Shown here: positions 3,286-21,607 of the stretch, one piece after another
Layout: each line of letters begins with the position of its first letter
Position numbering within the stretch: position 1 is the stretch's first letter
Assembly: GCA_028293725.1 (NCBI GenBank)
Contig: JAQGOE010000367.1
Span: forward strand, 1 to 29,986
Length of the DNA stretch: 29,986 nucleotides
Direction of reading: 5' to 3'
DNA from: Gammaproteobacteria bacterium
Lineage (GTDB): Bacteria; Pseudomonadota; Gammaproteobacteria; Steroidobacterales; Steroidobacteraceae
Program-made: the position numbers and the translations under genes
The notes under the pieces: generated by a model
Database searches by the model: none
What the model saw: only the letters and a program-made list of their open reading frames with translations
What the model was told of the DNA's origin: nothing

Positions 3286-3314
3286 TTGGCGAACCCCTAC
3301 CACGCAGTTATCAT
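3286..3314 (+). promoter_or_regulatory. Candidate sigma-70 promoter for idi-hpnH-ispA
   Basis: TTGGCG (3286-3291, 4/6 match to the -35 consensus) and TATCAT (3309-3314, 5/6 to the -10) are separated by exactly 17 bp. They lie about 70 bp before the idi start codon in a locally less GC-rich stretch. This is the best promoter-like pair I found by eye in the window; it is not experimentally supported. Confidence 0.45.
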
Positions 3315-3385
3315 GTGCGAATGAATGCTCATGGCACAGCCTGCGACAACGCGCCCCCGCGCGAGGGTACGGAGCTGCCTGCGTG

Positions 3386-3946
3386 ATGGATGATGTGGCT
3401 GCGCTCGATTCTGAAGCGCTCATTCTGGTCGACGAAGCGGACCGCGAAGTCGGCCACCTGAGCAAGGCCAAGTGCCATGACGGGCAGGGCGTGCTGCATC
3501 GTGCTTTCTCGCTGCTGATTTTCAACGGCGCGGGCGAGCTGCTGCTGCAGCAACGGGCTGCCTCGAAGCGCCTCTGGCCGCGGTACTGGTCGAACAGTTG
3601 CTGCAGCCATCCGCGCCGGGCTGAGAGCATGGAGACGGCGATCCACCGGCGCCTATACGAGGAGCTGGGGCTGCGCTGTCCGTTGCAGTTCCTGTTCAAG
3701 TTTCAGTACCAGGCGCAGTTCGAGACGGCGGGCTCCGAGCAGGAACTGTGCTCGGTGTTCATCGGCCGGAGCCGCGACCTGGTGAAGACCGATCCGAACG
3801 AGATTCTCGCGTGGCGCTGGGTCGATCCCGAGGCGCTGCAGGCTGAGCTGAGCGGCGTGGGCGCCGAGCAGTTCACGCCGTGGTTCAAACTTGAGTGGGC
3901 ACGAATCTGGCGGGATCACCGCGCAGCCGTGTTGGCTCTGAGATAA
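3386..3946 (+). CDS. idi: Isopentenyl-diphosphate delta-isomerase, type 1 (Nudix)
   Basis: This enzyme interconverts isopentenyl and dimethylallyl diphosphate in the cytoplasm, balancing the two C5 units for prenyl synthesis. The protein is 186 residues, close to the 182 of E. coli Idi. The catalytic cysteine is in NSCCSHP (C73, equivalent to C67 of the E. coli NSVCGHP motif), and the metal-binding/catalytic glutamates are in SEQELCSVF (E118, E120). The Nudix-type helix RRLYEELG is at about residues 88-95. The frame is open far upstream, but homology begins only at about residue 8 of the chosen start. GTG 3383 is an equally placed alternative, 8 nt after GGAG at 3371-3374. The hpnH Shine-Dalgarno overlaps the end of this gene, so the two are co-transcribed. 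Type 1 Idi is not essential in bacteria that use the DXP pathway, so its position here suggests high isoprenoid demand. Confidence 0.93.
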   Translation: MDDVAALDSEALILVDEADREVGHLSKAKCHDGQGVLHRAFSLLIFNGAGELLLQQRAASKRLWPRYWSNSCCSHPRRAESMETAIHRRLYEELGLRCPLQFLFKFQYQAQFETAGSEQELCSVFIGRSRDLVKTDPNEILAWRWVDPEALQAELSGVGAEQFTPWFKLEWARIWRDHRAAVLALR

Positions 3947-3957
3947 GGAGTTAAGAG

Positions 3958-5112
3958 TTGGGCGTACCGCTGATTCAAGCGTATCGTGTTGGGCGTTACA
4001 TCGCCGGACGCAAACTGCGCGGTGTGAAACGTTATCCCCTGGTGCTCATGCTGGAGCCGTTGTTCCAGTGCAACCTGGCCTGCGCCGGGTGCGGCAAGAT
4101 CGATTACCCCAAGGAGACTCTGCAGAAGCGGGTGAGTGTTGCCGACGCGCTCAAAGCCGTGGACGAATGCGGTGCGCCGATGGTCTCGATCCCCGGTGGC
4201 GAGCCCCTCATCCACAAAGAGATGCCGGAGATCGTCGCCGGCATCGTAGCGCGCAAGAAATTCGTGTACCTATGCACGAACGCGATACTCCTGCCGAAGC
4301 ACATCGACGATTACCAGCCGTCGCCGTACCTGACCTTCTCGATCCACCTCGACGGCAGCCGCGAGCGGCACGACGAGTCCGTGTGCCAGGAAGGGGTGTT
4401 TGACAAGGCCGTCGCGGCCATCAAGCTCGCCCGCAGCAAGGGCTTCCGGGTCACGATCAACTGCACGCTGTTCAGTGGCGAGGACCCGGACCACGTGGCT
4501 GCGTTCTTCGACGAGGCCATGGCGCTCGGCATCGAAGGCATCATGGTCTCGCCGGGCTTCAGTTATAACCATGCTCCGCGGCAGGATGTGTTCCTCGGCC
4601 GCAGCGCCAGCAAGCGTTTGTTCCGCGAAATCTTCAAGCGGGGCCGCAAGAAGGAAGGCAAGTCGGGCCTGCGCTGGTCTTTCAATCATTCCGGCCTGTT
4701 CCTGGACTTCCTCGCGGGTAACCAGGCTTACGAATGCACGCCCTGGAGCATGCCGACCTATAACCTCTTCGGCTGGCAGCGCCCCTGCTACCTGCTGACC
4801 GACGAAGGTTACGCGCCGACCTTCAAGTCCCTCATGGAAGACACCGCCTGGGAAAACTACGGCGTCGGACGCAACCCGGCCTGCGACAACTGCATGGCCC
4901 ACTGCGGATTCGAAGGCACGGCAGTGGACGATGCCTTTGCCCATCCGTTGCGAGCGCTGAAGGCGGCGTTGTGGGGACCGAAGCTCACCGGGCCGATGGC
5001 GGCTGATCCGCCGATCCTTTACGGAGATCGTTCGCGCCAGACCGTCGCCACGGTGGCGGTGGCTGACATCAAGCGCTCGAACCGCGAGCCCGACGCCCCT
5101 TCGAGGTTGTAA
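3958..5112 (+). CDS. hpnH: Hopanoid radical SAM protein HpnH (adenosylhopane synthase)
   Basis: HpnH is a radical SAM enzyme that joins an adenosyl radical to diploptene, giving adenosylhopane, the first step in side-chain extension of bacteriohopanepolyols. The 384-residue protein has the radical SAM cluster motif C38-x3-C42-x2-C45 (CNLACAGC), followed by GGEPL at about residues 80-84. A C-terminal region holds three further cysteines (C309, C312, C316, in CDNCMAHC), typical of the HpnH-associated C-terminal domain. The start is TTG 3958, supported by AAGGAG at 3945-3950 only 7 nt upstream; there is no earlier in-frame option after idi stops. It sits between idi (11 bp gap) and ispA, apart from its usual partners hpnG and hpnA, which lie 6 kb downstream. 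The call is strong because length, motif and neighbours all agree. Confidence 0.95.
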   Translation: MGVPLIQAYRVGRYIAGRKLRGVKRYPLVLMLEPLFQCNLACAGCGKIDYPKETLQKRVSVADALKAVDECGAPMVSIPGGEPLIHKEMPEIVAGIVARKKFVYLCTNAILLPKHIDDYQPSPYLTFSIHLDGSRERHDESVCQEGVFDKAVAAIKLARSKGFRVTINCTLFSGEDPDHVAAFFDEAMALGIEGIMVSPGFSYNHAPRQDVFLGRSASKRLFREIFKRGRKKEGKSGLRWSFNHSGLFLDFLAGNQAYECTPWSMPTYNLFGWQRPCYLLTDEGYAPTFKSLMEDTAWENYGVGRNPACDNCMAHCGFEGTAVDDAFAHPLRALKAALWGPKLTGPMAADPPILYGDRSRQTVATVAVADIKRSNREPDAPSRL

Positions 5113-5149
5113 TGATCGAAAAGCTTAGGCTGGCGGCGGAAGCTCGGGC

Positions 5150-6094
5150 GTGAATACAGCACTTTCCGCACGACAAGACACCCTGGGCGAGTCGGGCAAG
5201 CGGGAGGCATTTCGCGCCCAACTCGAGTCATGGCAGACGCGGATGGAGCGGGCGCTGGCCGCGCGCCTTCCCGAGGCGAGCGTGGTGCCCGCGCGCCTGC
5301 ACGAGGCAATGCGGTACAGCGTGTTGGGTGGCGGAAAACGCATCCGACCGGCGCTCGTATTCGCGACCGCGCATGCTCTCGGGCTGACGGAAGACGAAGT
5401 CGAAGCGGCCGCCTGTGCGATCGAGTTGATTCACGTCTACTCGCTGGTGCATGACGACCTGCCCGCGATGGATGACGATGATCTGCGTCGTGGTCGCCCC
5501 ACGTGCCATAAAGCCTTTGACGAGGCGACGGCGGTTCTGGTGGGCGACGCCCTGCAGACGCTGGCATTCCAGGTGTTGACTCGCGACCCGGCGCTACCTG
5601 CATCACCGGCCATCCGTCTGCGGTTGGTGGAGTTGCTGGCCGAAGCGAGCGGTACATTCGGCATGGCCGGTGGCCAGGCGATCGATCTCGGCGTGCAGGG
5701 CAAGAAACTCGATCTGGCCCAGGTCGAGGAAATGCACGCGCGCAAGACCGGCGCGTTGATTCGCGTCAGTGTGATGATGGCGGCGGCGTGCTCGCCGTCA
5801 CTCGAGCCTCGCTGGCACCATGCGCTGTTGGGATTCGTGAATCCGATCGGGCTGGCGTTCCAGATCCAGGACGATCTGTTGGACGTGCTTGGCGACGTGA
5901 CCACGCTCGGCAAGGCGACCGGAGCGGATAGCGAGCGGGGCAAGCCCACCCATCCGTCGGTGATTGGGATCGAAGCCTCGCAGGAACGGGTGCGCCTGCT
6001 TCACGCGCAGGCGTTGGACTCACTTGCGCCGTTCGGGATGCGTGCCGACCTGTTACGCGCGCTCGCGGATTGGCTCCTCGCCCGCCGTTACTGA
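5150..6094 (+). CDS. ispA: Farnesyl diphosphate synthase (short-chain trans-prenyltransferase)
   Basis: The 314-residue protein condenses IPP with allylic diphosphates to make farnesyl diphosphate, the substrate of the squalene synthase encoded downstream. The first aspartate-rich motif is [10 protein letters not shown] starting at D102 (DDx4D form, typical of bacterial type II FPP synthases). The second is QDDLLD in the C-terminal half. GGGKRIRP at about residues 60-67 binds diphosphate. The start is GTG 5150; only weak purine-rich sequence lies upstream, so the exact start is less certain. It follows hpnH by 37 bp. The last 42 bp overlap the end of dxs on the other strand. Chain length is inferred from family and context; a geranyl or geranylgeranyl product cannot be excluded from sequence alone. 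Confidence 0.93.
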
Positions 6095-7957
6095 GACCCA
6101 CCAGCGCTCGATACTGGAGCTCAAGCCGGCCGCGTCGAGACCCGCCGCGGCCAGGCAACTTTCGCGCGACCCATGCTCGATAAAACGGTCGGGGATACCC
6201 AGCCGCAGGTGGGGCAGGGAGCAGCCGCGGAACGCCAGCACCTCGCCCACGGCATTTCCCGCACCGCCCGCGATGGCGTTTTCCTCGATAGTCACAATGG
6301 CCCGATGCCGCGCGGCAAGCTCGATGACGAGATTCTCATCCAGCGGTTTCACGAATCGCATGTTGACGAGGGTCGCATCCAGGCGGTCCGCGATCTTTTG
6401 CGCGGACTCGAGGAGCGTGCCGAACACCAGCAATGCCAGCCCGCTACGTCCCTCGCGGCGCACTTGCCCACGGCCGACGGGGAGGGCGGTCATCTGTGTC
6501 ACAACCGATGCGCCCGAGCCGGTGCCACGCGGATAGCGTACGACCGATGGCGTGTTGAGAGTCGTCCCGGTGTAGAGCATCTGGCGGCACTCGTTCTCGT
6601 CAGACGGCGCCATGATCACCATGTTCGGAATGCAACGCAGGTAACTCAGGTCGTAACTGCCCTGGTGCGTGGCCCCATCGCTGCCGACGAGTCCGGCTCT
6701 ATCGACGGCGAACACGACCGGCAACTGCTGCAGGGCAACGTCGTGAATCAACTGGTCGTAAGCGCGCTGCAGGAAAGTTGAGTAGATCGCGACAACCGGC
6801 TTCATCCCCTCGGTCGCAAGTCCTGCGGCGAAGGTCACGGCGTGTTGTTCGGCGATGGCCACGTCGAAGTAGCGGTCGGGGAAGCGTTTCGAGAACTCAA
6901 CGAGTCCCGAGCCCTCGCGCATGGCAGGCGTCACGCCGACGATCTTCGGATCGGCCGCAGCCATGTTACAGAGCCATTGGCCAAACACCTGCGAATAGGT
7001 CGGGCCGCTGCTCTTTTCCTTGAAGAGGGTGCCGCTGGCGGGATCGAACGGGCCCGGACCGTGCCACTTGATTGGATCGGCCTCCGCGGGCGCGTAGCCC
7101 TTACCCTTGCGGGTGACCACATGAAGAAGCTGCGGGCCGCACAATTTCCTAACGTTCTGCAGCGTCTTTACGAGCGCATTTACGTCATGGCCATCCACCG
7201 GGCCGATGTAGTTGAACCCCAGCTCCTCGAACAAGGTCCCGGGCAACACCATTCCTTTCAAATGCCTTTCAGAACGGCGCGCCAACTCCCGGACGGTGGG
7301 CATCTGACGCAGGATCCGCTTGCCGCGCTCGCGCAGATGCGCATACATGGGTCCCGAAAGCGCCTGGGCAAACCGGTTCGACAGAGCGCCCACGTTCTCC
7401 GAAATGGACATGTTGTTGTCGTTCAGGACGACGAGCAGGTCCGTTGGCAGGGAACCGGCGTGATTGAGAGCCTCGAAAGCCATCCCGGCTGTCAGGGCTC
7501 CGTCGCCGATCACGGCGACGACCCGCCGGTTCTCGCCTTTGCGCGCGGCGGCGACGGCCATCCCGAGGGCGGCGCTGATCGAGGTGCTCGAGTGCCCAAC
7601 CCCAAAGGTGTCGTATTCGCTCTCCTCGCGGCTCGGGAAAGGCGCCAATCCTCCGGGCTGCTTAATCGATGGCAGGCGCTCGCGCCGGCCCGTGAGGACC
7701 TTATGCGGGTAGGCCTGGTGCCCAACGTCCCAGACCAGCCGGTCGTGTGGCGTATCGAACACATAGTGTAAGGCGATCGTGAGCTCGACCGTGCCCAAGC
7801 CGGCCGCCAGGTGTCCCCCTCGGGCGCTGACGCTGTGAACGAGGAACTCGCGCAACTCGGTCGCGAGCGCGGGTAACGCGGTTATCGGGAGGCCGCGCAG
7901 GTCCGCGGGGGAATTGAGGCTGCCTAGCAGCGGAGGGGTTGCCGACGATCCTGTCAT
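6053..7957 (-). CDS. dxs: 1-deoxy-D-xylulose-5-phosphate synthase
   Basis: DXS condenses pyruvate and glyceraldehyde-3-phosphate with thiamine diphosphate, the entry step of the methylerythritol phosphate route to IPP and DMAPP. The protein is about 634 residues. Long stretches match E. coli Dxs, including [27 protein letters not shown], the ThDP motif [13 protein letters not shown] ending in [28 protein letters not shown], and [16 protein letters not shown] chose ATG 7957; GTG 7975 would add six residues (MGILLR) and cannot be excluded. The C terminus runs about 14 residues past the usual end and overlaps ispA by 42 bp tail to tail. It is the only gene of this block on the minus strand and is divergent from squalene synthase across about 200 bp. 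Confidence 0.95.
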
Positions 7958-8154
7958 CCGTAGCAGTATACCCACAACCCGGTCCGGCGGCGGCGTTACA
8001 AAAGCTCCAGAGGCCCCGGATGCGGGGGGGCCCTTATGCTAAAGTGCGCACCGGCGTCGGGCGGCGCCCCCTGTCTTCAGGGCGCAACACGATCCCGAGG
8101 CCGTCCCCGGGTTTCAAGGCAAAGGTACTGTGTTTGAGTGGTGTTATTCGTACG

Positions 8155-9330
8155 ATGTCGCGCGACACTGTCCAAATGGATGCGAGCATTGCCGATGAGG
8201 ACTATCAGAATGGAATCCTGCCGCATGTCTCGCGCACCTTCGCGCTGACGATCCCACAGCTGCCTCCGGCTCTGCGGACGCCGGTCACCAACGCGTACCT
8301 GTTGTGCAGGATCGCGGACACGATCGAGGATGAGATCGATCCGTCGGTCGCTGCAACCCTGGTGTTGCAGCAGCGCTTCGTCGACGTCGTGTGTGGCCGG
8401 GAGGATGCGGATCTGCTGGTCCGGGATGTTGTGCCGCAGCTTTCCGAGCGGACGCTGCCGGCTGAACGCGACCTGGTGCTCAATATGAAGCGGGTGGTGG
8501 GTATCACCGCGGGCTTCGAGGACCAACAGCGCATCGCCATCCAGCGCTGCCTGGACATCATGTGCCACGGAATGCATAAATTTCAGCTGACCGCGAGCGT
8601 GCGCGGCCTGCCGCGCTCGACCGATCTCGATGACTACTGCTACTACGTGGCGGGCGTGGTGGGCCAGATGCTCACCGAGTTGTTCTGCAGCTACTCGCCG
8701 GAAATACGCCAGCATCGCAGCGAGCTGCACGACCTGGCCGTATCCTTCGCGCAGGGCCTGCAGATGACCAACATCCTCAAGGATGTCTGGGAAGACCGCA
8801 CCCGGGGCGCCTGTTGGCTGCCGCAGGAAGTGTTCACACGCTACGGCATCGACCTGGAACAACTGGTTCCGGGACAACCCGACACGCGCTTCGACGCCGG
8901 CATGCGCGAGTTGGTCGGCGTCGCCCACGTCCATCTGCGTAACGCCCTGGGTTACACCCTGTTGATTCCCGGCAAGGAGACGGGCATCCGCCGCTTCTGT
9001 CTCTGGGCGATCGGGCTGGCCGTGCTCACGCTGCGCAAAATTGCACAGACCCCGGGCTTCGCCAGCGGCACGCAGGTGAAGGTCTCACATGCCGCCGTAG
9101 GACTGACCCAGGTATCGACGAACGTCGCGGTGCGCAGCAACTGGATGCTGCAACGGCTATTCGACTGGGCCGCCATCGGCGTGCCTCTCGCCGCGCCCGC
9201 CGTGGCGCGACGTTCACCCCGACCGGCCCTGCATCTCGCAGGACCCACCACCGCGGAAAAAAACCATAGCGCCCGGCCCGTGCCGCTGGAGCGCACCGCT
9301 CGCCGTTCTGAAGGGAGATCCGGCCTTTGA
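8155..9330 (+). CDS. sqs: Squalene synthase (farnesyl-diphosphate farnesyltransferase)
   Basis: This 391-residue protein belongs to the squalene/phytoene synthase family and most resembles the one-enzyme, eukaryote-like type that turns two farnesyl diphosphates into squalene with NADPH. The first Asp-rich motif is DTIED (D55-D59) after SRTFAL and LLCRIAD. The second is DVWED (D210-D214) followed by RTRGACWLPQE, a hallmark block of squalene synthases. YCYYVAGVVGQ and a C-terminal hydrophobic region also fit. The start is uncertain: the frame is open upstream, homology starts near residue 15, and ATG 8155 lacks a strong Shine-Dalgarno. ATG 8176 is the alternative. Its stop overlaps the shc start (TTGA), so it is translationally coupled to the cyclase. 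Dehydrosqualene synthase is a less likely alternative. Confidence 0.9.
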   Translation: MSRDTVQMDASIADEDYQNGILPHVSRTFALTIPQLPPALRTPVTNAYLLCRIADTIEDEIDPSVAATLVLQQRFVDVVCGREDADLLVRDVVPQLSERTLPAERDLVLNMKRVVGITAGFEDQQRIAIQRCLDIMCHGMHKFQLTASVRGLPRSTDLDDYCYYVAGVVGQMLTELFCSYSPEIRQHRSELHDLAVSFAQGLQMTNILKDVWEDRTRGACWLPQEVFTRYGIDLEQLVPGQPDTRFDAGMRELVGVAHVHLRNALGYTLLIPGKETGIRRFCLWAIGLAVLTLRKIAQTPGFASGTQVKVSHAAVGLTQVSTNVAVRSNWMLQRLFDWAAIGVPLAAPAVARRSPRPALHLAGPTTAEKNHSARPVPLERTARRSEGRSGL

Positions 9331-11330
9331 ATCGTCAGTCCCACGCTCGTGATGCAGCCCTGTCCGAAGGGGCCGAGGCACCCGACCTGCGCCCCCTGAA
9401 ATTCGACCGTCTCGCCACGCAATCGACGTTGGATCGAACCATCGAGACCGCGCACGACGCGATGTTGAATGCGCAGCATGCGGACGGCTACTGGCTGTTC
9501 GAGCTCGAGGCGGATTGCACGATTCCGTCCGAATACATCCTGATGATGCATTACCTGGACGAGATCGATCCCGCACTGGAAGCGAAGATCGCCGTCTACC
9601 TGCGGGCGAACCAGGCCGATCACGGCGGCTGGCCGCTGTATTACGGCGGCGAGTTGGATATCAGCGCCACCGTCAAGGCGTATTACGCGCTGAAGCTCGC
9701 GGGTGACAGCCCCGACGCGCCTCACATGCAACGGGCTCGGAAAGCGATCCTCGAGCGCGGTGGCGCGGCGCGATCCAACGTCTTCACGCGCATCGCGCTC
9801 GCATTGTTCGGCGAGGTGCCGTGGCGCGCCGTCCCGTACATCCCCGTGGAAATCATGCTCCTGCCGAGTTGGTTTCCGTTCCATCTCGACAAGGTGTCTT
9901 ACTGGTCGCGTACGGTGATGGTGCCGCTGTTCATTCTGTGCACCTACAAGCCGCGCGCGCGAAATCCGCGCAACGTGCACATTCGCGAGTTGTTCACGAC
10001 GCCGCCGGATGAAGAGCATCACTACTTCAGGTTGCCCGCCACCGGGCGCGGCGCGCGCCGGCTTGCCCGGGCGTTCTTTCTGCTCGATCGTTGTTTCCGG
10101 ATCATCGATCCGCTCATTCCGAAGGCCATGCGCAGGGCGGCGACGCGGCGCGCGGAGTCCTGGTTCATAGAGCGCCTGAACGGCGAGGACGGGCTGGGCG
10201 CGATTTTCCCGGCGATGGTGAACTCGCTGGAGGCGATGGTGTTGCTCGGCTATCCGCGCGATAACCCACACCGGGTGATCGCGAAGCGTGCCATCGAGAA
10301 GCTCCTGGTGATCGAGGGCAACAGCGCGTACTGCCAGCCGTGCGTCTCGCCTGTGTGGGATTCGGCTCTGGCCGCTCTGGCCATGCAGGAGACCGGTGGT
10401 GCGTCCGCCGAGACTGCCGCCAACCGCGCGCTCGACTGGCTGAAGGGTAAGCAGTTGCTCGATGAGCCGGGCGACTGGCAGGTCAAACGGCCGGGTCTTC
10501 CCGGCGGCGGTTGGCCCTTTCAGTTCGCCAACCCTCACTATCCGGACCTCGATGACACCGCGGTGATCGCCTGGTCCATGCACCGGTCCAACGAGTCCGA
10601 GCGCTACCGGGAATCGCTGACCCGGGCGTTGGACTGGCTGGTGGGGATGCAGAGCACGAACGGCGGGTTCGCCGCGTTCGACGTCGACAACACACATTAC
10701 AATCTCAACTACATTCCCTTCGCCGATCACGGCGCCCTGTTGGATCCGCCGACGAGCGACGTGACCGCCCGGACCGTCACCGCGCTCGCTCTCGTGGGTC
10801 GCCCACAAGACCAGCCCGCGATGGCGCGCGCTATCGATTTCCTGCGCGCGGAACAGATGCCCGACGGCTCGTGGTTCGGCCGCTGGGGCACGAATTACAT
10901 CTATGGCACCTGGTCGGTGTTGATGGCCTTTGCGCAGGCCGGCATCGGGCCCGACGATGCAAGCGTGAAGCGTGCGGTCGAGTGGCTCGCGAAGCATCAG
11001 AACGCCGATGGCGGCTGGGGCGAAAGCAACGACAGCTACGGCTGGCAATCACGGCCTGCCGAGGTCAACACCCCGAGCAATCCCTACCAGACGGCCTGGG
11101 CACTGCTCGGATTGTTGTCGTCAGGCCAGGTGGATTCGAGCCCCGTTCGTAACGGTATCGAATACCTGGTGCGGACCCAGCAACAGCACGGGCTGTGGAG
11201 CGATCCGACCTTCACCGCGCCGGGCTTTCCGCGCGTGTTCTATCTCAAGTATCACGGCTACTGCGCCTATTTCCCGCTCTGGGCCTTGGCGGCGTATCGG
11301 AATCTCTCCCGCGCCGGGGCGGCTCATTGA
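9327..11330 (+). CDS. shc: Squalene-hopene cyclase
   Basis: The enzyme is a monotopic membrane cyclase that turns squalene into hopene (diploptene) and hopanol, the core of all hopanoids. The protein has 667 residues, a full-length size for the family. The protonating motif is DLDDTA, D407-A412, with D409 equivalent to the catalytic middle aspartate of the DxDD signature. Several QW-type repeats are visible, for example QADHGGWPLYYGG, QMPDGSWFGRWG and QNADGGWGES. The start is TTG 9327, overlapping the squalene synthase stop as TTGA, with AAGGGAG at 9311-9317 giving 9 nt spacing. The next gene hpnG begins in the same way, so sqs-shc-hpnG-hpnA is one coupled operon. The DxDDTA motif and the squalene synthase next to it exclude an oxidosqualene cyclase. 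Confidence 0.96.
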   Translation: MNRQSHARDAALSEGAEAPDLRPLKFDRLATQSTLDRTIETAHDAMLNAQHADGYWLFELEADCTIPSEYILMMHYLDEIDPALEAKIAVYLRANQADHGGWPLYYGGELDISATVKAYYALKLAGDSPDAPHMQRARKAILERGGAARSNVFTRIALALFGEVPWRAVPYIPVEIMLLPSWFPFHLDKVSYWSRTVMVPLFILCTYKPRARNPRNVHIRELFTTPPDEEHHYFRLPATGRGARRLARAFFLLDRCFRIIDPLIPKAMRRAATRRAESWFIERLNGEDGLGAIFPAMVNSLEAMVLLGYPRDNPHRVIAKRAIEKLLVIEGNSAYCQPCVSPVWDSALAALAMQETGGASAETAANRALDWLKGKQLLDEPGDWQVKRPGLPGGGWPFQFANPHYPDLDDTAVIAWSMHRSNESERYRESLTRALDWLVGMQSTNGGFAAFDVDNTHYNLNYIPFADHGALLDPPTSDVTARTVTALALVGRPQDQPAMARAIDFLRAEQMPDGSWFGRWGTNYIYGTWSVLMAFAQAGIGPDDASVKRAVEWLAKHQNADGGWGESNDSYGWQSRPAEVNTPSNPYQTAWALLGLLSSGQVDSSPVRNGIEYLVRTQQQHGLWSDPTFTAPGFPRVFYLKYHGYCAYFPLWALAAYRNLSRAGAAH

Positions 11331-13035: not shown

Positions 13036-13055
13036 TGTAAGAAAAAGGTTAGAAT
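13026..13055 (+). promoter_or_regulatory. Weak candidate promoter ahead of the phosphonolipid block
   Basis: TTCATC (13026-13031) and TAGAAT (13050-13055, 5/6 match to the -10) are 18 bp apart in the only AT-rich, non-overlapping gap between hpnA and the next gene. The -35 match is poor. If real, it would let the downstream block be transcribed apart from the hopanoid operon; read-through is equally possible. Confidence 0.25.
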
Positions 13056-13102
13056 GGGGCGATGCGTGCTTGCACCTGAAATGGTTTTTCGCATCGTCGC
13101 CA

Positions 13103-13783: not shown

Positions 13784-14532
13784 GCAGCGTCGCCGCGAGT
13801 CTGGGGGCCATCCCCGCTCCGCCGCTGCGCCAGCAGTTCGTGGAGCAGGGGGCTTTCCTCTATCTCAGCGAGTTTTTGCCGCCCGAGGCCACTGCGCAAC
13901 TCGTCGCGGCGGCGGTTGCGGTCAAAGAGTCGGTGAACCGCAATTATCTCCCCGGCCATAAACAGGGCGGCAGTGTCAGCCGGTACACGCTCGATGAGCT
14001 GGCGCCGTTCGTCGGCGACCTGTATCGCTCGCCAGCGCTCATCGAGTGGCTGGGACTGCTTGCGGGTGAGCGCCTGCAGGTGTCGCCGCCGAATGACCCA
14101 CACGCTTACGCTCTGTATTTCTATACCCGCCCCGGCGATCACATCGGCTGGCATTACGACACGTCCTATTACGCCGGCCGGCGCTACACGCTGCTCATCG
14201 GCGTGATCGACGAATCGTCCTGCCGCCTCGACTACGAGTTACACACCCGGGAGGAGGGGGCGCGCGTCGTACCTGGCTCGGTGCAGATACCGCCGGGCGG
14301 ACTGGTCTTCTTTGATGGCGACAAGCTTCGCCACCGGATCTCGCCTCTGGGCGAGAACGAGGTCCGTGTATCGCTGACGTTCGAGTACGTCACCAACCCG
14401 AAGATGCATGTCGGGTGGCGCGTCATCTCCAATATGAAGGACGCGTTTGGCTACTTCGGCTTTCGGCAGGTATTCCGCCGGCGGCGGCGTGGCTCGGAGC
14501 CCAGGCCGGCGGGCGCACCCGAGCCGCTATGA
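13780..14532 (+). CDS. 2-oxoglutarate/Fe(II)-dependent oxygenase
   Basis: This is a soluble double-stranded beta-helix dioxygenase of about 250 residues. With the chosen start, the iron ligands are H125-x-D127 (GWHYDTS) and H185 (DKLRHRIS), and the 2-oxoglutarate-binding arginine is R196, 11 residues after the distal histidine. The layout is that of a working enzyme. The start is doubtful: the only start overlapping the previous stop is CTG 13780 (CTGA overlap), with GGTGGGGG at 13769-13776 as a possible Shine-Dalgarno, and GTG 13840 is the next in-frame choice. The stop overlaps the next gene as ATGA. The family includes hydroxylases and halogenases; D127 in the HxD motif argues against a halogenase. 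Its place in an AEP cluster suggests hydroxylation of a phosphonate or lipid, which is inference. Confidence 0.83.
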   Translation: MSSVAASLGAIPAPPLRQQFVEQGAFLYLSEFLPPEATAQLVAAAVAVKESVNRNYLPGHKQGGSVSRYTLDELAPFVGDLYRSPALIEWLGLLAGERLQVSPPNDPHAYALYFYTRPGDHIGWHYDTSYYAGRRYTLLIGVIDESSCRLDYELHTREEGARVVPGSVQIPPGGLVFFDGDKLRHRISPLGENEVRVSLTFEYVTNPKMHVGWRVISNMKDAFGYFGFRQVFRRRRRGSEPRPAGAPEPL

Positions 14533-15524
14533 CAAAGGCGGCCACCTGGCTCCTGACGGCGGGAGCGTTATTGTTCATTGGCGTGCTGGCCTCACAGGGG
14601 CTGCCGGCGGTCCTGTCGGCGTTGGCCGCGGCCGGTTGGGGCCTGGTGCTGGTGGCCTTGTTTCATCTTCTGCCGCTGGTACTCGATGCCGCGGCGATTC
14701 GCGTGTTGTTCGTTCCGGGCGCCGCGCCTGTCGCCCTGCGCGACTCGATCCTGACACGTTGGGTCGGAGAGTCAGCGAATAGTTTTCTGCCGGCGGGACA
14801 ACTCGGCGGTCCCGTGCTCATGGCCCGGCACCTGGCGCATCGGGGCATGCCCATGCGGGACGCCGCCGCCGTGATCACGGTCAGCACCACTCTCGGAACG
14901 TTCGCGCAGATTGTCTTTGCCTTGTGTGGTGTAGCTCTCCTGGGGGCGCACGCCGGGCGTATCTCCGAGCATGCCCTGCGGATGTCAGCGCTGGTGGCGA
15001 GCGGCTTCCTCGCGGTCCAGATCGGCGGCTTCTATCTTCTGCAGCGGCGCGGTTTCTTCAGCAAGCTCATGCGGGGCGCGACCCGCTTCGCCGGGAAGCG
15101 CGACTGGTCACAGTGGGTGAGCCGCGCCGAGGCTATCGACCTGTCGATACAGGAGATCTATCGCCGTGGGGGCGGGGTGGCCGCCAGTTTCCTGCTCAGC
15201 CTCGTAGGCTGGCTCGTCGGCACCGGTGAAGTCTTCCTCGTCCTGCAGCTTCTCGGTCATCCGGCGAGTTGGCTCGATTCACTGTTGCTCGAAAGCCTCG
15301 GGCAGGCCATTCGCGGCGCTGCCTTCGCCGTGCCCGGCGCCCTCGGGGTGCAGGAGGGCGGCTACCTGCTGTTGGCACCGTTGGCCGGGCTGCCGCCGGA
15401 TGCGGCCCTGGCCCTCTCGCTCGCAAAGCGCGCGAGGGAGATCCTATTGGGCCTGCCTGGTCTGTTGTACCTTCACCTCGCGGAACGGGCCGGCGCAGCC
15501 GCTACACGCCCCGTTCCACCTTGA
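14529..15524 (+). CDS. hpnL: HpnL-type polytopic membrane protein (lysylphosphatidylglycerol synthase TM-region family)
   Basis: The 331-residue protein is almost entirely hydrophobic, with about seven or eight membrane spans (for example residues 4-22, 34-48, around 107-135 and 150-175). It contains GQLGGPVLMARHL, characteristic of the UPF0104/LPG-synthase transmembrane family to which HpnL belongs. HpnL proteins are found near hopanoid genes, but their activity is not settled; the wider family is linked to lipid movement across membranes. The start is ATG 14529 in an ATGA overlap with the oxygenase. The frame extends into the oxygenase gene but without membrane-like sequence. The position between a head-group transferase and AEP synthesis genes suggests translocation of the finished lipid. 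No catalytic domain is attached. Confidence 0.8.
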   Translation: MTKAATWLLTAGALLFIGVLASQGLPAVLSALAAAGWGLVLVALFHLLPLVLDAAAIRVLFVPGAAPVALRDSILTRWVGESANSFLPAGQLGGPVLMARHLAHRGMPMRDAAAVITVSTTLGTFAQIVFALCGVALLGAHAGRISEHALRMSALVASGFLAVQIGGFYLLQRRGFFSKLMRGATRFAGKRDWSQWVSRAEAIDLSIQEIYRRGGGVAASFLLSLVGWLVGTGEVFLVLQLLGHPASWLDSLLLESLGQAIRGAAFAVPGALGVQEGGYLLLAPLAGLPPDAALALSLAKRAREILLGLPGLLYLHLAERAGAAATRPVPP

Positions 15525-15544
15525 GTTTATTGTTAGGGAGTTTC

Positions 15545-16297
15545 ATGCGAGCGATTATTCTTGCCGCCGGACGCGGTATGCGTCTGAGGGAGGCCGCCGA
15601 CGTGCCGAAGTGTCTGCTGAGCTTCGATGGCATGACCTTGCTCGAGCGCCACTTGCGCCTGCTGCGGCAGGCCGGGGTCGACGAGGTCGTGCTGGCGCTC
15701 GGTTGGCGCCACGAGTTGGTGTCGGCCGAGCTCGATCGCCTGGAATGGCGGCCGCGGCCCGAAATTGTCCTCAATCCGCGCTTCGAGCTCGGCAGCGTCC
15801 TTACCGTGCACACGGTTGCCGAGGCTATGACACGCGGCGGCGACGTTCTGCTCATGGACGCCGACGTGCTTTATCACGACCGCATCATGGCGGCCTTGGT
15901 GGCCGGAGCGAAGCCGGTAAACCGTGTACTCCTCGATCGTGACTTCGAAGCCGGTGATGAGCCTGTGAAGCTGTGCGTGCGTGACGGCGTGCCGGTGGAG
16001 TTGCGCAAGCAACTCGCTCCCGACCTGAAGTACGACACTATCGGTGAGTCGGTTGGGTTCTTCCGCTTCGACAACGCGGGGGCACGGCGGCTCGCGGCTA
16101 TTGTCTCCGACTATGTCGGCAGCGATCGCGCCCACTTGCCCCACGAGGAAGCCGTTCGCGACCTGTTCCGCGAAGGCAGCCAGGCCGTGGAGGTCGCCGA
16201 TGTGACGGGCGCGCCCTGGATCGAGATCGATTTTCCGAACGATGTATCGCGGGCAGAACACGAAGTGCTGCCGCAACTGCGGCCCATTGCCAATTAA
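15545..16297 (+). CDS. Stand-alone nucleotidyltransferase, LicC/PntC-like
   Basis: The 250-residue protein is a nucleotidyltransferase of the sugar-phosphate/phosphocholine type. It starts with LAAGRGMRL (residues 6-14), followed by PKCLL with the conserved lysine K22, and has a metal-binding DAD (D105, D107, in LLMDADVLYH). The segment NPRFELGSVLTVHTVAEA resembles the substrate-binding region of LicC-type cytidylyltransferases. The start is ATG 15545, just after AGGGAG at 15535-15540. It lies 7 bp before the PEP mutase-PntC fusion, so the operon has two nucleotidyltransferases. It may activate a modified AEP (for example after the oxygenase step) or another head group such as a polyol phosphate. 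The nucleotide, presumed CTP, is not proven by sequence. Confidence 0.82.
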   Translation: MRAIILAAGRGMRLREAADVPKCLLSFDGMTLLERHLRLLRQAGVDEVVLALGWRHELVSAELDRLEWRPRPEIVLNPRFELGSVLTVHTVAEAMTRGGDVLLMDADVLYHDRIMAALVAGAKPVNRVLLDRDFEAGDEPVKLCVRDGVPVELRKQLAPDLKYDTIGESVGFFRFDNAGARRLAAIVSDYVGSDRAHLPHEEAVRDLFREGSQAVEVADVTGAPWIEIDFPNDVSRAEHEVLPQLRPIAN

Positions 16298-16303
16298 GGA
16301 CAC

Positions 16304-18061
16304 ATGCCGACAATGAATGCTTCATTAGCTTCAGCACGCGCGCCCGGCACCCCGGGGGCGAAAGAGAGCGCCGGCGCGACCCGCAGCGCCAAACTGCGTC
16401 AGATGTTGTTGAGCGAGCAGCTCGAATTTCTGATGGAAGCGCACAACGGCTTATCAGCCCGCATTGTGCGCGAGGCGGGGTTCAGCGGCATCTGGGCCTC
16501 CGGCCTGTCGATTTCGGCCCAGCTCGGTGTCCGCGACAACAACGAGGCGAGCTGGACCCAGGTGGTCGACGTCCTCGAGTTCATGGCCGACGCCAGCGAT
16601 CTACCGATTCTTCTCGATGGCGACACCGGCTACGGCAACTTCAACAACATGCGCCGCCTGGTGCGCAAGCTCGAGCAGCGCGGCATCGCCGGGGTGTGTA
16701 TCGAGGACAAGCAGTTCCCGAAAACCAACAGCTTCCTGAACGGCGAGCGTCAGCCGCTGGCCGACATCGCCGAATTCGCCGGCAAGATCGCGGCCGGCAA
16801 GGACACGCAGCACGACCCGAATTTCTCCATCGTCGCGCGGGTCGAGGCGCTCATCGCCGGCTGGGGGATGGAGGAAGCCCTGCGGCGCGCGGAGGCCTAT
16901 CGCCTCGCCGGCGCCGATGCCATTCTGATTCACAGCAAACTGTCGAAGCCCGACGAGATCCTGACTTTCGCGCGGGAATGGGCCGGGCGCGGGCCGCTCG
17001 TGATCGTGCCGACCAAGTACTACAGCACCCCGACGAACGTTTTCCGCCTCGCGGGCATCAGCCTCGTCATCTGGGCGAACCACATGGTGCGCTCGGCGAC
17101 GAGTGCCATGCAGAGCGTCGCGAAGGAGGTGTTCGCCAGCCAGACGCTGGTGAACATCGAGGACCGAATCGTGTCGGTCGATGAGATCTTCCGCCTCCAG
17201 GATGCCGACGAGTACTCCGCGGCGGAGCGGCTCTACCTGTCCGCTTCCACGACCTCGCGTTCCGCCGTCGTATTGGCGGCAAGTCGTGGCAAGGGGCTCG
17301 AGGCCGTCACCACCGACCGGCCCAAAGTCATGTTGCCGATTGCGGGCAAACCGCTGTTGCGCTGGCTCGTCGACAGTTTCAAGAAAGAGAGCATCAACGA
17401 CATTACCGTCGTCGGCGGCTATCGCGCCGATTCGATCGATCCGGCGGGCATCCGCCTGGTCGTGAACGAGCGCTACGCACAGACCGACGAGCTCGCCTCG
17501 CTGGCCTGCGCCATCGAGAAGCTCGAATCGGACACGGTGATTTCCTACGGCGATCTGCTATTCCGCAGTTATGTGTTGCGCGACCTCGTCGAGAACAAGG
17601 CCGATTTCTCGGTCGTGGTCGACTCGTCACCGACCGACGCCAGCAATCGTACGGTACGCGATTTCGCGTATTGCAGCCGCGGCGATGATCGAGGTTTGTT
17701 CGGCACCCAGGTGCTGCTGAAACGCGTGGTGAGCCGGGCGGACACGCGGCCGGAGGGCACGGCCGATGCGGAGCCGCAGGGCCGTTGGATCGGAATGTTG
17801 AATGTCAGTCGCCAGGGCCTGGTGAAGTTGAAGACGGTGCTGACGGCTCTGCGCGCGCGCCCCGATTTCGATGCGCTCGATATGCCCGCGTTGCTGAACG
17901 CGCTGATTGCCGATGGCGCGGCCATCGAAGTGTTGTACGTGCATGGCCACTGGCGCGGAGTGAATGATCTCGAGGATTTCCGCCGCGCCGTCGATTTCGC
18001 GCATGGACAGACACCCTTCGGCAGCACGCCGGACACGGCGCCGACCGAAAGCAACACGTGA
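16304..18061 (+). CDS. pepM: Phosphoenolpyruvate mutase fused to PntC-type cytidylyltransferase
   Basis: The 585-residue protein joins two enzymes. Residues about 30-310 are PEP phosphomutase, which makes the C-P bond of phosphonopyruvate; [11 protein letters not shown] (105-115) and the diagnostic [10 protein letters not shown] (134-143) are intact. Residues about 318-575 form a nucleotidyltransferase with the PntC-like opening LAASRGKGL and [17 protein letters not shown], then [13 protein letters not shown]. PntC enzymes activate AEP with CTP to CMP-AEP, and PepM-PntC fusions are known from the phosphonate literature. The start is ATG 16304 after TAAGGA at tight spacing; ATG 16313 is an alternative. 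The stop overlaps the decarboxylase start (GTGA). The fusion places the first and last steps of CMP-AEP synthesis on one chain. Substrate preference of the second domain is inferred. Confidence 0.94.
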
Positions 18062-19248
18062 TCGAAGCGCGTCACTTCGTGGAAGCCGCGCGGGAGCGCG
18101 GCTTCGAATGGTACGCGGGTGTGCCGTGCTCCTATCTCACGCCATTCATCAACTATGTGCTGCAGGATCCCTCCTTGCACTACGTGTCGATGGCGAACGA
18201 GGGCGATGCGGTCGCCTTGATCGCGGGAGTCGCGCTCGCCGGGGTTCCGGGTGGCGGTCATCGGCGCGGGATCGCGATGATGCAGAACTCGGGACTGGGC
18301 AATGCCGTCAGCCCGCTCACGTCTTTGACCTGGACGTTCCGTTTACCGCAGTTGTTGATCGTCACCTGGCGGGGGCAGCCGGGCGTTCCCGACGAGCCAC
18401 AACACGCCTTGATGGGACCCATCACGCCAGCGATGTTGGACACCATGGAGATCCGCTGGGAGCTGTTTCCGACGGATGCCGCGGCGATCGGCCCGGCCCT
18501 CGATCGTGCCATCGCCCATATGGACGCCACCGGCCGGCCGTACGCCCTGGTGATGCAAAAGGGAAGTGTGGCCACCTATCCGCTACAGCCTGGCGCCGAC
18601 GCGATCGGGGTACGGGCTTCGCGGGCCGCCGCCACAGTGGAGTCGTCACAGCCGGCGCCTGCGAAACGCGTTTCCCGGCAGGAAGCCTTGCGGGAAGTCG
18701 TGGCTCGGACTGCTCCCGGTTCCACTGCCGTGTTAGCGTCGACCGGGTTCTGTGGCCGCGAGTTGTATGCGGTTGAAGACCGGCCCAATCACCTCTACAT
18801 GGTGGGCTCGATGGGTTGCGTAGTGCCGCTTGCGCTGGGTCTGGCGCTGGCTCGGCCGGACCTCCGCGTGGTCGCGCTCGACGGTGACGGAGCCGCTTTG
18901 ATGCGAATGAGCGCCTTCGCGACCGTCGGAGCGTATGGCCCACCCAACCTGCGGCACCTGCTGCTCGATAACGGTGCCCATGATTCCACCGGTGGCCAGG
19001 CGACCGTGTCGCCCAATGTTTCGTTCGCGCAGGTTGCCGCCGCCTGTGGTTACGCATCGTCGCTCGAAACCGCTGTTTTGAGCTCTATTTCAGCTTGGCT
19101 AGACCTCCCGCCGCTCGACGGGCCACGCTTCGCACGCCTGCTGACGCGCCCCGGGAGTCCGGCGGATCTGCCCCGACCGTCAATAACTCCAGTCGACGTC
19201 AAGACACGTCTGATGCAACACTTCGCTCCCCAAACCGGAGCGCCGTAA
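18058..19248 (+). CDS. ppd: Phosphonopyruvate decarboxylase (ThDP-dependent)
   Basis: The enzyme decarboxylates phosphonopyruvate to phosphonoacetaldehyde, the exergonic step that pulls the unfavourable PEP mutase reaction forward. The 396-residue protein starts with a ThDP pyrimidine-binding half: [15 protein letters not shown] and the catalytic glutamate in [10 protein letters not shown]. The C-terminal half has the diphosphate-binding [16 protein letters not shown] and the decarboxylase-typical [13 protein letters not shown]. The start is GTG 18058 in a GTGA overlap. The stop codon shares a base with the transaminase start (TAATG). Sulfopyruvate decarboxylase is a related family, but PEP mutase and the transaminase on either side settle the call. 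Residues about 188-215, between the two halves, look like a linker. Confidence 0.95.
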
Positions 19249-20321
19249 TGCTGTTGCTGAATCCCGGGCCTGTCACGCTGAGTGAGCGTGTACGCCGCAG
19301 TTTGCTGCAACCTGACCTGTGTCATCGCGAGAGCGAGTTCTTCGACTTGCAGGACGAGGCGCGCACCCGCCTGCTGGCGGTGTATGGGCTGGATCCGGCC
19401 GAGTGGACCGCGGTTCTCATGACCGGCTCGGGCACGGCCGCCGTCGAGAGCATGATCGCCTCCGTGGTCCCCGAAGGGGGCCGAGTCCTGATTGTGGAGA
19501 ACGGCGTGTACGGGGAGCGGATTGCGCAGATATGCGCGCAATACCGGATTTCTCATGAGCGCATCATCGGCTCCTGGATGGAGGCGCCGGACGTTGCCGC
19601 GATTACCGCGCGACTCGACGCGGCCTCGGGCGAGGCCCCTTTCACACACCTTTCAGTCGTTCATCACGAGACCACGACGGGGCGACTGAATGATCTGCGG
19701 CCGCTGGCCGAGCTGTGTCGCTCGCGGGACCTTGGCTTGCTGCTCGACGGCGTCAGCAGTTTCGGGGCGGAAGAACTCGATTTTACGCACGGTGGTCTGT
19801 CGGCTGTGGCCGCGACGGCGAACAAGTGCCTGCATGGAGTGCCGGGTGTTTCGTTCGTGATCGTGCGACGAGCTGCGCTTGCCCGCGCTGCGAGTCGTGC
19901 CTACTACCTGGACCTCGGCCGGCTGGCGAGATTACAGGATCAGCGCAACACGCCGTTCACGCCGGCCGTGCATGCTTACTATGCTCTCGTCGAGGCTCTG
20001 CGTGAGTTTGCCGAAGAGGGCGGCCGGCCGACGCGCTATAGACATTACAAGGCGCTGGCGGAGCAGGCGCGGGATGGGTTGGCGGCTTTGGGGATCCCGA
20101 CGGTCATTCCACCACAGGAATCGTCGGTTGTTCTTCGTTCGTACCGTTTACCGCCCGGACTGACATACTTGCAGCTGCATGATGAGCTAAAGAGCGGTGG
20201 TTTTGTGATATATGCGGGGCAGGGGGATTTGTCGAAGACGCTGTTTCGCATTTCGACAATGGGTAATCTGACCAAGGGCGATATTGATCGACTACTGACG
20301 TGTTTCGCGAAGCTGCGTTAA
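19248..20321 (+). CDS. phnW: 2-aminoethylphosphonate aminotransferase (PhnW/AepZ type)
   Basis: The 357-residue PLP enzyme is a class V aminotransferase interconverting phosphonoacetaldehyde and AEP, with alanine/pyruvate or a similar amino pair. The N terminus LLLNPGPVTLS is typical. The PLP-binding lysine is K193 in TANKCLHGVPG, and the pyridine-nitrogen aspartate is D167 in LLLDGVSSFG. The start is ATG 19248 with GGAG 7 nt upstream; the longer frame inside ppd is a shadow. PhnW is best known from AEP breakdown, but downstream of PEP mutase and decarboxylase the biosynthetic (AepZ) direction is implied. No phosphonoacetaldehyde hydrolase or C-P lyase gene is present, which argues against catabolism. 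The last 22 bp overlap the outer-membrane protein gene. Confidence 0.93.
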   Translation: MLLLNPGPVTLSERVRRSLLQPDLCHRESEFFDLQDEARTRLLAVYGLDPAEWTAVLMTGSGTAAVESMIASVVPEGGRVLIVENGVYGERIAQICAQYRISHERIIGSWMEAPDVAAITARLDAASGEAPFTHLSVVHHETTTGRLNDLRPLAELCRSRDLGLLLDGVSSFGAEELDFTHGGLSAVAATANKCLHGVPGVSFVIVRRAALARAASRAYYLDLGRLARLQDQRNTPFTPAVHAYYALVEALREFAEEGGRPTRYRHYKALAEQARDGLAALGIPTVIPPQESSVVLRSYRLPPGLTYLQLHDELKSGGFVIYAGQGDLSKTLFRISTMGNLTKGDIDRLLTCFAKLR

Positions 20322-21607
20322 AAATCTCCCGAGGGAGTCTGCTTGCCCTCCTGCTCGTGACAGCGTCCTGGTCGTGCTTCGCCGACCCCGGAGATGTACC
20401 GGCCCCTGACGCGGCCGGTCCAAAGCCGACGGTTCCGCCCGCCGACCTGCAGCACTGGTACGACTTGTCGAATCTGCCGTTCATTCCGGTGCCATCGATC
20501 GGCGCGGACCCAAATAGCGGCACGACGGTGGGTTTGCTGCCGGTCTGGCTGCATACCGACGAAAATCACGACATCACCCGGATCATCGCGCCCGACGTCA
20601 CCCACAACCCCTATTTCGGCTGGGGCTTCCACGGGCGTCTGTATTCATACAATTCGACCGACGAGCAGTGGTCGATCGTTGCCGGAGCGAGGGAGAAGGT
20701 CGAGCGCGGAATCGATGCTCAATACCAGCTGGGCCGGCTGCACCAGGGGAATTTCACTTCGACTACGGATGCGGATTTCGATCGCGACGGCACGCCGCGC
20801 TTCTTTGGCATCGGCAACGACACGCGGCTCAGCAACCAGTCGAACTACACCGCCCAGACGACGCTGCTGCAGGAACAACTCGGCTGGAATCTGACACCTC
20901 ACTGGCAATTGCTGTACACCCTTCGTAAGCGCATCGTAAAGGTGCTTCCCGGCACGCTGTCGAGCATTCCGTCAATCCAGACTGTGTTCGGAACCACCCG
21001 CCTGGGAACCAACAGCGAGTTGCTCAATCGATACTCTGTCGTCTACGACACGCGCGACGATCTGACCGCGCCGCGTACGGGGATGCGGGTCGTCATTTAT
21101 GGAGGAGCGGCCAGCCGCGGCGGCATCTTCAACGAGTCCCTCTACAGCGAAGCCGGCGGCGATGCGCGCGGCTATTGGTCGATCCGGCCGGACACGGTCG
21201 TAGCGGCGCACGTGTCGATACGTTACATGCCCCACACGGATCAAGTTCCGTTCTGGGCTCTCAGCAGCATCGGCGGTGACACGAGCGATGTGGGGGGCGA
21301 GCAGCCGTTGCGTGGCTTCGGCGCGGGGCGGTTTTACGACCGGAATGAGTTCTCCACCAGCGCCGAAGTGCGGCACACCTTCTGGGGATTCAATGCGGAG
21401 TCGACGCACGTCGACCTCGAGATCGCCCCCTTCGTGGACCTCGGCCAGGTTTTTGGCCGGACCAGCACCTTTCCCATCCAGCGCCTGCATACCGTGGGTG
21501 GCGTAGCGTTTCGCGGCATCGCCCGGCCCTCGGTTGTCGGTTATGTCGATGTCGGTTACGGCAGTGAAGGCGCGGCCGTATTCACCGGACTCAATTATCC
21601 TTTTTAG
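20300..21607 (+). CDS. Outer-membrane beta-barrel protein, Omp85/surface-antigen-like
   Basis: The 435-residue protein has a signal peptide with a hydrophobic core (LLALLLVTAS) and a likely cleavage after SCFA. The mature part is full of alternating aromatic/polar strands and ends in phenylalanine (GLNYPF), the usual C-terminal barrel signature. The segments GTNSELLNRYSVVYDTRDD, PRTGMRVVIYGG and GGEQPLRGFGAGRFYD fit the C-terminal barrel of Omp85/BamA-TamA type surface antigens. POTRA domains are missing, since only about 60 residues precede the barrel. The start is GTG 20300, overlapping phnW by 22 bp; no other start would keep the signal peptide. Coupling to the phosphonate genes suggests a role at the outer membrane for the operon's product, which is inference. 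Confidence 0.8.
   Translation: MFREAALKISRGSLLALLLVTASWSCFADPGDVPAPDAAGPKPTVPPADLQHWYDLSNLPFIPVPSIGADPNSGTTVGLLPVWLHTDENHDITRIIAPDVTHNPYFGWGFHGRLYSYNSTDEQWSIVAGAREKVERGIDAQYQLGRLHQGNFTSTTDADFDRDGTPRFFGIGNDTRLSNQSNYTAQTTLLQEQLGWNLTPHWQLLYTLRKRIVKVLPGTLSSIPSIQTVFGTTRLGTNSELLNRYSVVYDTRDDLTAPRTGMRVVIYGGAASRGGIFNESLYSEAGGDARGYWSIRPDTVVAAHVSIRYMPHTDQVPFWALSSIGGDTSDVGGEQPLRGFGAGRFYDRNEFSTSAEVRHTFWGFNAESTHVDLEIAPFVDLGQVFGRTSTFPIQRLHTVGGVAFRGIARPSVVGYVDVGYGSEGAAVFTGLNYPF

Follow-up and report, generated by a model that had tools for sequence, protein, structure and literature searches.

What might a bacterium make from a single run of genes in which hopanoid assembly passes directly into phosphonate synthesis? 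The question is raised by contig JAQGOE010000367.1 of a gammaproteobacterium of the Steroidobacteraceae (assembly GCA_028293725.1), of which a stretch of 29,986 nucleotides, hereafter the window, was analysed. Our answer is that the locus probably produces a hopanoid of the 2-aminoethylphosphonate (AEP) type, in which a bacteriohopanepolyol carries AEP, or a derivative, as an ester formed from the CMP-activated compound; for the terminal (C35) hydroxyl as the point of attachment we would allow slightly less than an even chance. The proposed hopanoid AEP transferase, a CDP-alcohol phosphotransferase referred to here as CDPOH, is found together with hopanoid and AEP genes across many genomes, and exceptions involving PEP mutase (PepM) exist.

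Genes were called by Pfam and NCBIfam profile scans against curated cut-offs, and their junctions by inspection of starts and stops. A hopanoid half, from IDI to HpnA, precedes a phosphonate half, from CDPOH to an Omp85 barrel, with a Rieske oxygenase upstream of both, in the following order (positions in the window, strand, product).

1998..3158, plus strand: Rieske oxygenase (VanA_C; PF00355, PF19112), SdmA-like, a possible but unproved member of the locus
3386..3946, plus strand: IDI, isopentenyl-diphosphate isomerase of Nudix type (TIGR02150, 149.5 bits, above cut-off)
3958..5112, plus strand: HpnH, adenosyl-hopene transferase (TIGR03470, 533.8 bits, above cut-off)
5150..6094, plus strand: polyprenyl (farnesyl) diphosphate synthase, ispA (PF00348)
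6053..7975, minus strand: DXS, 1-deoxyxylulose-5-phosphate synthase (TIGR00204, 910.9 bits)
8155..9330, plus strand: SQS, squalene synthase, start uncertain (PF00494, 191 bits; TIGR01559, 99 bits, below its curated cut-off)
9327..11330, plus strand: SHC, squalene-hopene cyclase (TIGR01507, 832 bits, above cut-off)
11327..12028, plus strand: HpnG, hopanoid-associated phosphorylase (TIGR03468, 192.5 bits, cut-off 187.1)
12025..13035, plus strand: HpnA, hopanoid-associated sugar epimerase or short-chain dehydrogenase/reductase (TIGR03466, 502.5 bits)
13103..13783, plus strand: CDPOH, 226 aa, proposed AEP-to-hopanoid transferase (PF01066)
13780..14532, plus strand: 2-oxoglutarate (2OG)/Fe(II) oxygenase of HalD/BesD fold, start uncertain, perhaps CTG (PF23169)
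14529..15524, plus strand: HpnL, flippase-like membrane protein (TIGR03476, 312 bits, cut-off 195.65)
15545..16297, plus strand: NTPt, stand-alone nucleotidyltransferase, candidate AEP cytidylyltransferase, PntC-like (PF12804)
16304..18061, plus strand: PEP mutase fused to an atypical nucleotidyltransferase domain (TIGR02320, 392 bits, above cut-off)
18058..19248, plus strand: Ppd, phosphonopyruvate decarboxylase (TIGR03297, 431 bits, above cut-off)
19248..20321, plus strand: PhnW/AepZ, 2-aminoethylphosphonate aminotransferase (TIGR03301, 379 bits, above cut-off)
20300..21607, plus strand: outer-membrane barrel of the Omp85 superfamily (PF01103)

Curated NCBIfam cut-offs are exceeded by IDI, HpnH, DXS, SHC, HpnG, HpnA, HpnL, PEP mutase, Ppd and PhnW-AepZ, and Pfam cut-offs by SQS, CDPOH, the oxygenase, NTPt, the PepM-fused nucleotidyltransferase domain (also PF12804) and the Omp85 barrel. 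The first-pass annotation of this DNA had described hopanoid genes continuing into phosphonate genes, closely packed with mostly 4-bp overlaps and with 67 bp between the halves, and the profile matches and the junctions bear this out: 4-bp overlaps join SQS to SHC, SHC to HpnG, HpnG to HpnA, the oxygenase to HpnL and PepM to Ppd, Ppd and PhnW overlap by 1 bp, and the gaps are 6 bp between NTPt and PepM, 20 bp between HpnL and NTPt and 67 bp between hpnA and CDPOH. It needs correcting in that dxs lies on the minus strand within the range it described. The SHC, HpnH and HpnG of a bacteriohopanepolyol pathway are thus all present above curated cut-offs, as are the three enzymes of an AEP pathway, a PEP mutase with the motif EDKxxxxxNS (present in 80/80 aligned rows), Ppd and an AEP aminotransferase.

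SQS, SHC, HpnH and HpnG serve in the assembly of the C35 hopanoid polyol, and PepM, Ppd and PhnW in the synthesis of AEP. In the pathway we propose, the first set would supply the polyol and the second the AEP, which would be activated to CMP-AEP by a cytidylyltransferase, most likely the stand-alone NTPt. CDPOH may then transfer AEP from CMP-AEP to the hopanoid, at one of the side-chain hydroxyls or at a hydroxyl of the ribose-derived precursor of that chain; the product would be a hopanoid that is zwitterionic and contains a carbon-phosphorus (C-P) bond. In lineages that have it, the 2OG oxygenase might, at a guess, hydroxylate AEP or the side chain, and HpnL, or elsewhere HpnN, would carry the lipid in the direction of the outer membrane, a step in which the Omp85 barrel of this locus may take part. 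CDP-alcohol phosphotransferases are marked by the motif D-x2-D-G-x2-A-R-x8-G-x3-D-x3-D, and in CDPOH both this catalytic motif and the fold of the family are intact.

When genome contigs were scanned with CDPOH, 83 loci matched and 80 were kept (48 non-cyanobacterial and 32 cyanobacterial), and whole-genome searches found SHC in 46/48 and 31/32 of the respective genomes (77/80). The three without a match are G009, G032 and G073, and the G032 locus (L064) has hpnH and hpnA. As these genomes had been chosen through CDPOH, we drew two class samples. The first comprised 321 genomes from the class of G003, whose relatives are mostly titled Gammaproteobacteria, and was scored with limits of E <= 1e-20 for CDPOH and E < 1e-50 for SHC, and with the profile cut-off for PepM; CDPOH was present in 19 genomes, SHC in 47 and PepM in 21. 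SHC occurred in 19/19 CDPOH-positive genomes (Fisher p 3.5e-18) and 19/21 PepM-positive genomes (Fisher p 6e-16), with kinship ignored in both tests. At E <= 0.001 SHC matched 63 genomes, 60 of them above the Pfam cut-off, and the weak matches, including G126 (E 1e-5), were dropped; weak CDPOH matches in G295 and G394 (E ~6e-11, no SHC) likewise fall outside the 1e-20 limit. The second sample comprised 177 genomes from the class of G043 (titled Rhodospirillaceae), with CDPOH scored by profile. It contained PepM above cut-off in 19 genomes, CDPOH in 21 and SHC in 47, and SHC was present in 19/19 PepM-positive and 21/21 CDPOH-positive genomes, or in 18/18 of the latter if the weak matches G608, G657 and G691 (1e-23 to 1e-28) are excluded. 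A further three SHC-positive genomes (G550, G599, G609) match PepM below cut-off at E < 1e-60. The association tables remain significant after removal of the ascertained genomes (G003, G036 and G038 from the first sample, G043 from the second).

If one enzyme joins an AEP donor to a hopanoid acceptor, CDPOH and PepM should track each other within SHC-positive genomes. Among the 47 of the first sample both are present in 18, one alone in 1 and 1 (G036 has CDPOH without PepM; G242 has PepM and SHC without CDPOH, with pepM sitting within the hopanoid cluster L137) and neither in 27; among the 47 of the second the corresponding counts are 17, 4 and 2, and 24. PepM lies above cut-off in 38/48 non-cyanobacterial CDPOH genomes, and at 19/32 cyanobacterial loci when looked for within the fetched stretches only. 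A sample of 146 cyanobacterial genomes contains SHC in 41 and CDPOH in 2, both SHC-positive, although CDPOH had served to select one of them, the centre genome. CDPOH was found in 15 of 72,556 plasmid records, from four genera; 14 of these are among the 46 records that have SHC, and the one that is not comes from Cupriavidus sp. P-10, while the four Cupriavidus records among the 46 (the best 40 were listed, including all four) come from other strains. Among the findings that the first-pass annotation said would tell against a phosphonate hopanoid is a phosphonate block routinely carried without hopanoid genes in related genomes, and this pattern was not seen in the class samples, the locus genomes or the plasmids. 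HpnH was tried as a discriminator of CDPOH-positive genomes and was not decisive, being present in most SHC-positive genomes either way (18/19 with CDPOH, the miss being G274, versus 24/28 others in the first sample; 42/49 of those searched).

The association extends to physical linkage. Outside the cyanobacteria CDPOH often adjoins hpnA, hpnG or hpnN: a hopanoid gene lies in the stretch at 36/48 loci, with HpnA within 300 bp at 32, and in stretches of about 3.6 kb from the class samples the counts are 12/19 and 11/21. The pepM gene shares a stretch with SHC, HpnG, HpnH or HpnA in 11/19 and 7/19 of the genomes positive for both PepM and SHC in the first and second samples, the latter figure excluding HpnA-like matches of 26–34% identity in L217, L223, L224 and L227 (11 if included), and in some unlinked genomes pepM is on a short contig. 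Gene orders vary among Alpha-, Beta- and Gammaproteobacteria. That of L056, for example, is SQS-HpnG-HpnN-CDPOH-HpnA-oxygenase-PepM-Ppd-PhnW-dxs-HpnH, which differs from the window; in Roseomonas marmotae the block lies next to hpnH, hpnG, shc, hpnEDC and hpnA, the whole hybrid being on one plasmid; and in Mycetohabitans the block, dxs, HpnN, ispH, hpnH and hpnA fall within about 18 kb, with shc about 15 kb from pepM. Its neighbourhoods in other lineages exclude the block being an oddity of Burkholderia or of peat metagenome-assembled genomes (MAGs). Strains that carry the block include Nostoc punctiforme NIES-2108 (L019) and Nitrococcus mobilis Nb-231 (L075). Two annotations met in these loci call for caution: contigs titled as a Klebsiella pneumoniae MAG (L036, L051, L074) contain hopanoid genes and fall among other Gammaproteobacteria, so that the titles look wrong, and a Mycetohabitans ABC permease gene (L002:2572-3288) bears the label of a predicted AAC(3) resistance gene (100% identity), which is probably an artefact of annotation.

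In one locus, L220, CDPOH continues into HpnN within a single open frame (13995-17306), the HpnN part scoring 959.5 bits with TIGR03480 against a cut-off of 751.85. HpnN transports hopanoids to the outer membrane. Hopanoid shuttling of this kind is also mentioned in the available text of PMC12583986. The fusion therefore ties CDPOH to hopanoids independently of co-occurrence. A search among proteins of the size of the L220 fusion, made with the CDPOH part only and with the best 7,996 candidates scored, returned at least five proteins. At least three clusters (P0121-P0123, one being the L220 protein itself) combine CDP-OH and MMPL domains, all above the HpnN cut-off; they hold 6, 3 and 4 member sequences (13 in total), with 100, 72 and 60% identity to the query CDPOH part. 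The cluster at 100% identity is matched to L220 by a shared longest contig of 36,660 bases. The fifth protein carries sensor-kinase domains. Another product of this search, P0124 (690 aa), has a CDPOH-type domain behind a class-III aminotransferase (PF00202), which could be HpnO-like or AEP-related. The CDPOH tree had 105 rows: besides the window and two outgroups it took in 102 family sequences out of 126, the other 24 being same-genome copies or shorter than 190 aa. HpnA has a CDPOH paralogue on either side in L046, L151, L218 and L230, an arrangement that would suit the use of two different acceptors or head groups.

Several observations weigh against a phosphonate hopanoid as the product. 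A hopanoid gene lies nearby at only 1/32 cyanobacterial CDPOH loci. The two PepM-positive genomes without SHC in the first sample (G126 and G290) also lack CDPOH, and PepM matches below cut-off occur without SHC in G175, G292 and G390 of that sample and, at E < 1e-60, in G576 of the second. PepM is absent from 6/48 non-cyanobacterial CDPOH genomes (G005, G007, G010, G024, G036, G047), of which the first three keep, at L008, L010 and L013, an unbroken CDPOH-oxygenase-HpnL-NTPt-Omp85 run in a genome with no PepM above cut-off; the donor may therefore not always be home-made AEP. In such genomes CDPOH may take another head group or imported AEP, or the MAGs may be incomplete. The available text of a survey reporting 63 hopanoid structures from 52 alphaproteobacterial strains, which were not sorted by presence of the block, does not contain the word phosphonate (PMC12583986), and that of a Burkholderia cenocepacia metabolome study reports cyclitol-ether hopanoids and no phosphonate, the annotation having been made from known hopanoids (PMC8560942). 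Finally, an independent-pairs test of PepM against CDPOH, on quick SHC trees of 45/47 SHC-positive genomes per class (G195 and G258, and G588 and G706, left out), yielded only 3 and 4 pairs on well-supported branches (sign test p 0.25) and was underpowered. Of the co-occurrence beyond phylogeny that the first-pass annotation had proposed to look for, the association reaching far beyond the window is thus found, but the strict, phylogeny-aware test, limited to these few pairs, is not significant.

The alternative that survives best, although we think it unlikely, is that CDPOH makes a diacylglycerol (DAG) phosphonolipid with AEP in place of phosphoethanolamine, its proximity to hopanoid genes resulting from a shared outer-membrane destination or from co-regulation. 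A cluster of the same gene content in Nostoc and Burkholderia, with hpnL named in the figure legend, has been interpreted in terms of a phosphonolipid, and 'hopan' is absent from the available main text of that report (PMC5987646). However, an enzyme acting on DAG should not need SHC, yet SHC is present in 40/40 CDPOH-positive genomes of the two class samples, and the fusion of CDPOH to a hopanoid transporter also speaks against such a role. In Mesorhizobium AR10, whose phosphonate cluster lacks any hopanoid gene within its stretch, the CDP-alcohol transferase is a very distant one. The closest folds to CDPOH are AF2299 and the phosphatidylinositol-phosphate synthases rather than CEPT1, a weak argument against the DAG reading, and fold matches cannot tell the acceptor. 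AF2299 and IPCT-DIPPS share the fold and catalytic motif of CDPOH, and IPCT-DIPPS also pairs a nucleotidyltransferase with a CDP-alcohol transferase, but both act on other substrates and are only 20–21% identical to CDPOH.

Less probable still is that CDPOH modifies hopanoids with another head group supplied by NTPt (phosphoethanolamine, phosphocholine or a sugar phosphate), AEP being used elsewhere, for example on a glycan via the PepM-fused domain. The retention of CDPOH, oxygenase, HpnL and NTPt at the three PepM-less loci described above would fit this, and two separate nucleotidyltransferases may mean two substrates. Which of the two is PntC was judged by the signature GXG(T/S)R...PK and by the acidic residues lying opposite the amine of AEP, which in Tde-PntC are Glu104 and Glu196. 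The first-pass annotation had taken the PepM-fused domain (17255-18061) to be PntC, an assignment we revise: the arginine of GXG(T/S)R is absent in 80/80 fusions and the first glycine of the signature is Ser, Thr or Ala in 79/80, with Pro-Lys retained in 80/80. Since the canonical arginine is missing throughout, the activity of this domain would appear to be doubtful or different. NTPt keeps the arginine and is for that reason the better candidate: G9, G11, R13, P21 and K22 are invariant in 24 rows, the (T/S) position being Met in the window. Residues 2-244 match Tde-PntC (6pd1) at E 8.5e-6 in a weak 28-bit alignment, which places an invariant Glu201 at the equivalent of Glu196 and Asp105 at that of Glu104. 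Of the two, the stand-alone NTPt rather than the fused domain looks the likelier AEP cytidylyltransferase; Asp105, as in LicC, would fit another head group. Against another head group, CDPOH and PepM track each other in SHC-positive genomes, and the PepM-less group lies close to loci whose block is broken or only partial (L004, L082) and so looks like a case of secondary loss. PepM is in pieces or a broken copy in a further 4/48 CDPOH genomes (G001, G009, G019, G031), and L004, L008, L010, L013 and L082 are related loci in which PepM, Ppd or PhnW is broken or gone.

It is very improbable that the genes share no product and are associated only through hitch-hiking, be it phylogenetic or ecological: the phylogeny-aware test leaves room for it, but gene orders differ among the three proteobacterial classes, genes are fused, and PepM changes state at least 9 and at least 10 times among SHC-positive genomes on the two best SHC trees, few of these changes being on well-supported branches.

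The oxygenase has no ATG, GTG or TTG start within 13740-13839 that would preserve its conserved N-terminus, and our guess is that translation begins with the CTG at position 13780, which overlaps the stop codon of CDPOH. In 2OG/Fe(II) halogenases of HalD/BesD type the Asp of the HxD triad is replaced by Gly or Ala. Residues H124-x-D126, H184 and R195 of the window oxygenase are invariant in 30 rows, and the invariance of D126 excludes a halogenase role and leads us to expect a hydroxylase. For the Rieske protein the best NCBIfam model is the 4beta-methylsterol monooxygenase SdmA, at 154 bits against a cut-off of 600; homologues lie immediately before CDPOH in L004, L008, L010 and L013 and after it in L093 and L094. 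This protein is SdmA-like and HpnA is SdmB-like, recalling the pair that demethylates bacterial sterols at C-4, both scoring below the cut-offs of those models. An Omp85 homologue follows the phosphonate block in L005-L011, L013 and L015.

How far does this locus resemble known systems? Sugar-bearing hopanoid derivatives have been described. The hpn clusters (SHC-HpnH-HpnG) have the same enzymes above curated cut-offs, with accessory hpnA and hpnL common to both and hpnN in relatives of the window, but differ in their products: the derivatives described are nucleosides, cyclitol ethers, and carbamoyl and amino compounds, and none with a C-P bond was found in the available text (PMC12583986). 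The Pnt phosphonyl-tailoring pathway similarly combines PEP mutase with PF12804 cytidylyltransferases, and clusters are illustrated in which a nearby nucleotidyltransferase accompanies the fused one; it differs in the hopanoid acceptor proposed for the window, 'hopan' and 'squalene' being absent from the available main text (PMC6697681). The first-pass annotation's statement that it knew of no described phosphonate hopanoid agrees with our literature searches, in which none appeared among the open-access matches listed (subscription journals being mostly outside the scope, an earlier report is possible), but the idea itself is older, a 2021 report on Roseomonas having linked shc to PEP mutase and suggested an undiscovered terpene-phosphonate. 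As far as its available text goes, that report differs in that it names neither a transferase nor a mechanism and gives no distribution beyond the family and no evidence from fusions (PMC8776678).

In the two class samples together 38/40 PepM-positive genomes have SHC, and 19/47 SHC-positive genomes have PepM in each. We lean, by somewhat more than an even chance, towards phosphonate hopanoids being a widespread and overlooked class, with most AEP synthesis in Alpha- and Gammaproteobacteria serving to cap hopanoids, about two in five hopanoid makers carrying the pathway, and a role in it for hpnL and perhaps hpnA, genes whose roles are described as not yet established in the available text of PMC12583986. 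The predicted ester of bacteriohopanetetrol and AEP is C37H68NO6P, with a computed [M+H]+ of 654.486; a further oxygen atom would raise this to 670.481. Hopanoids correspond in bacteria to the sterols, and their fossil record is long. If the proposal is true, a zwitterionic C-P head group would change views of their role in membranes, of polar hopanoids possibly overlooked in lipid surveys and of the purpose of environmental AEP, and would offer a direct functional test for hpnL and hpnA.

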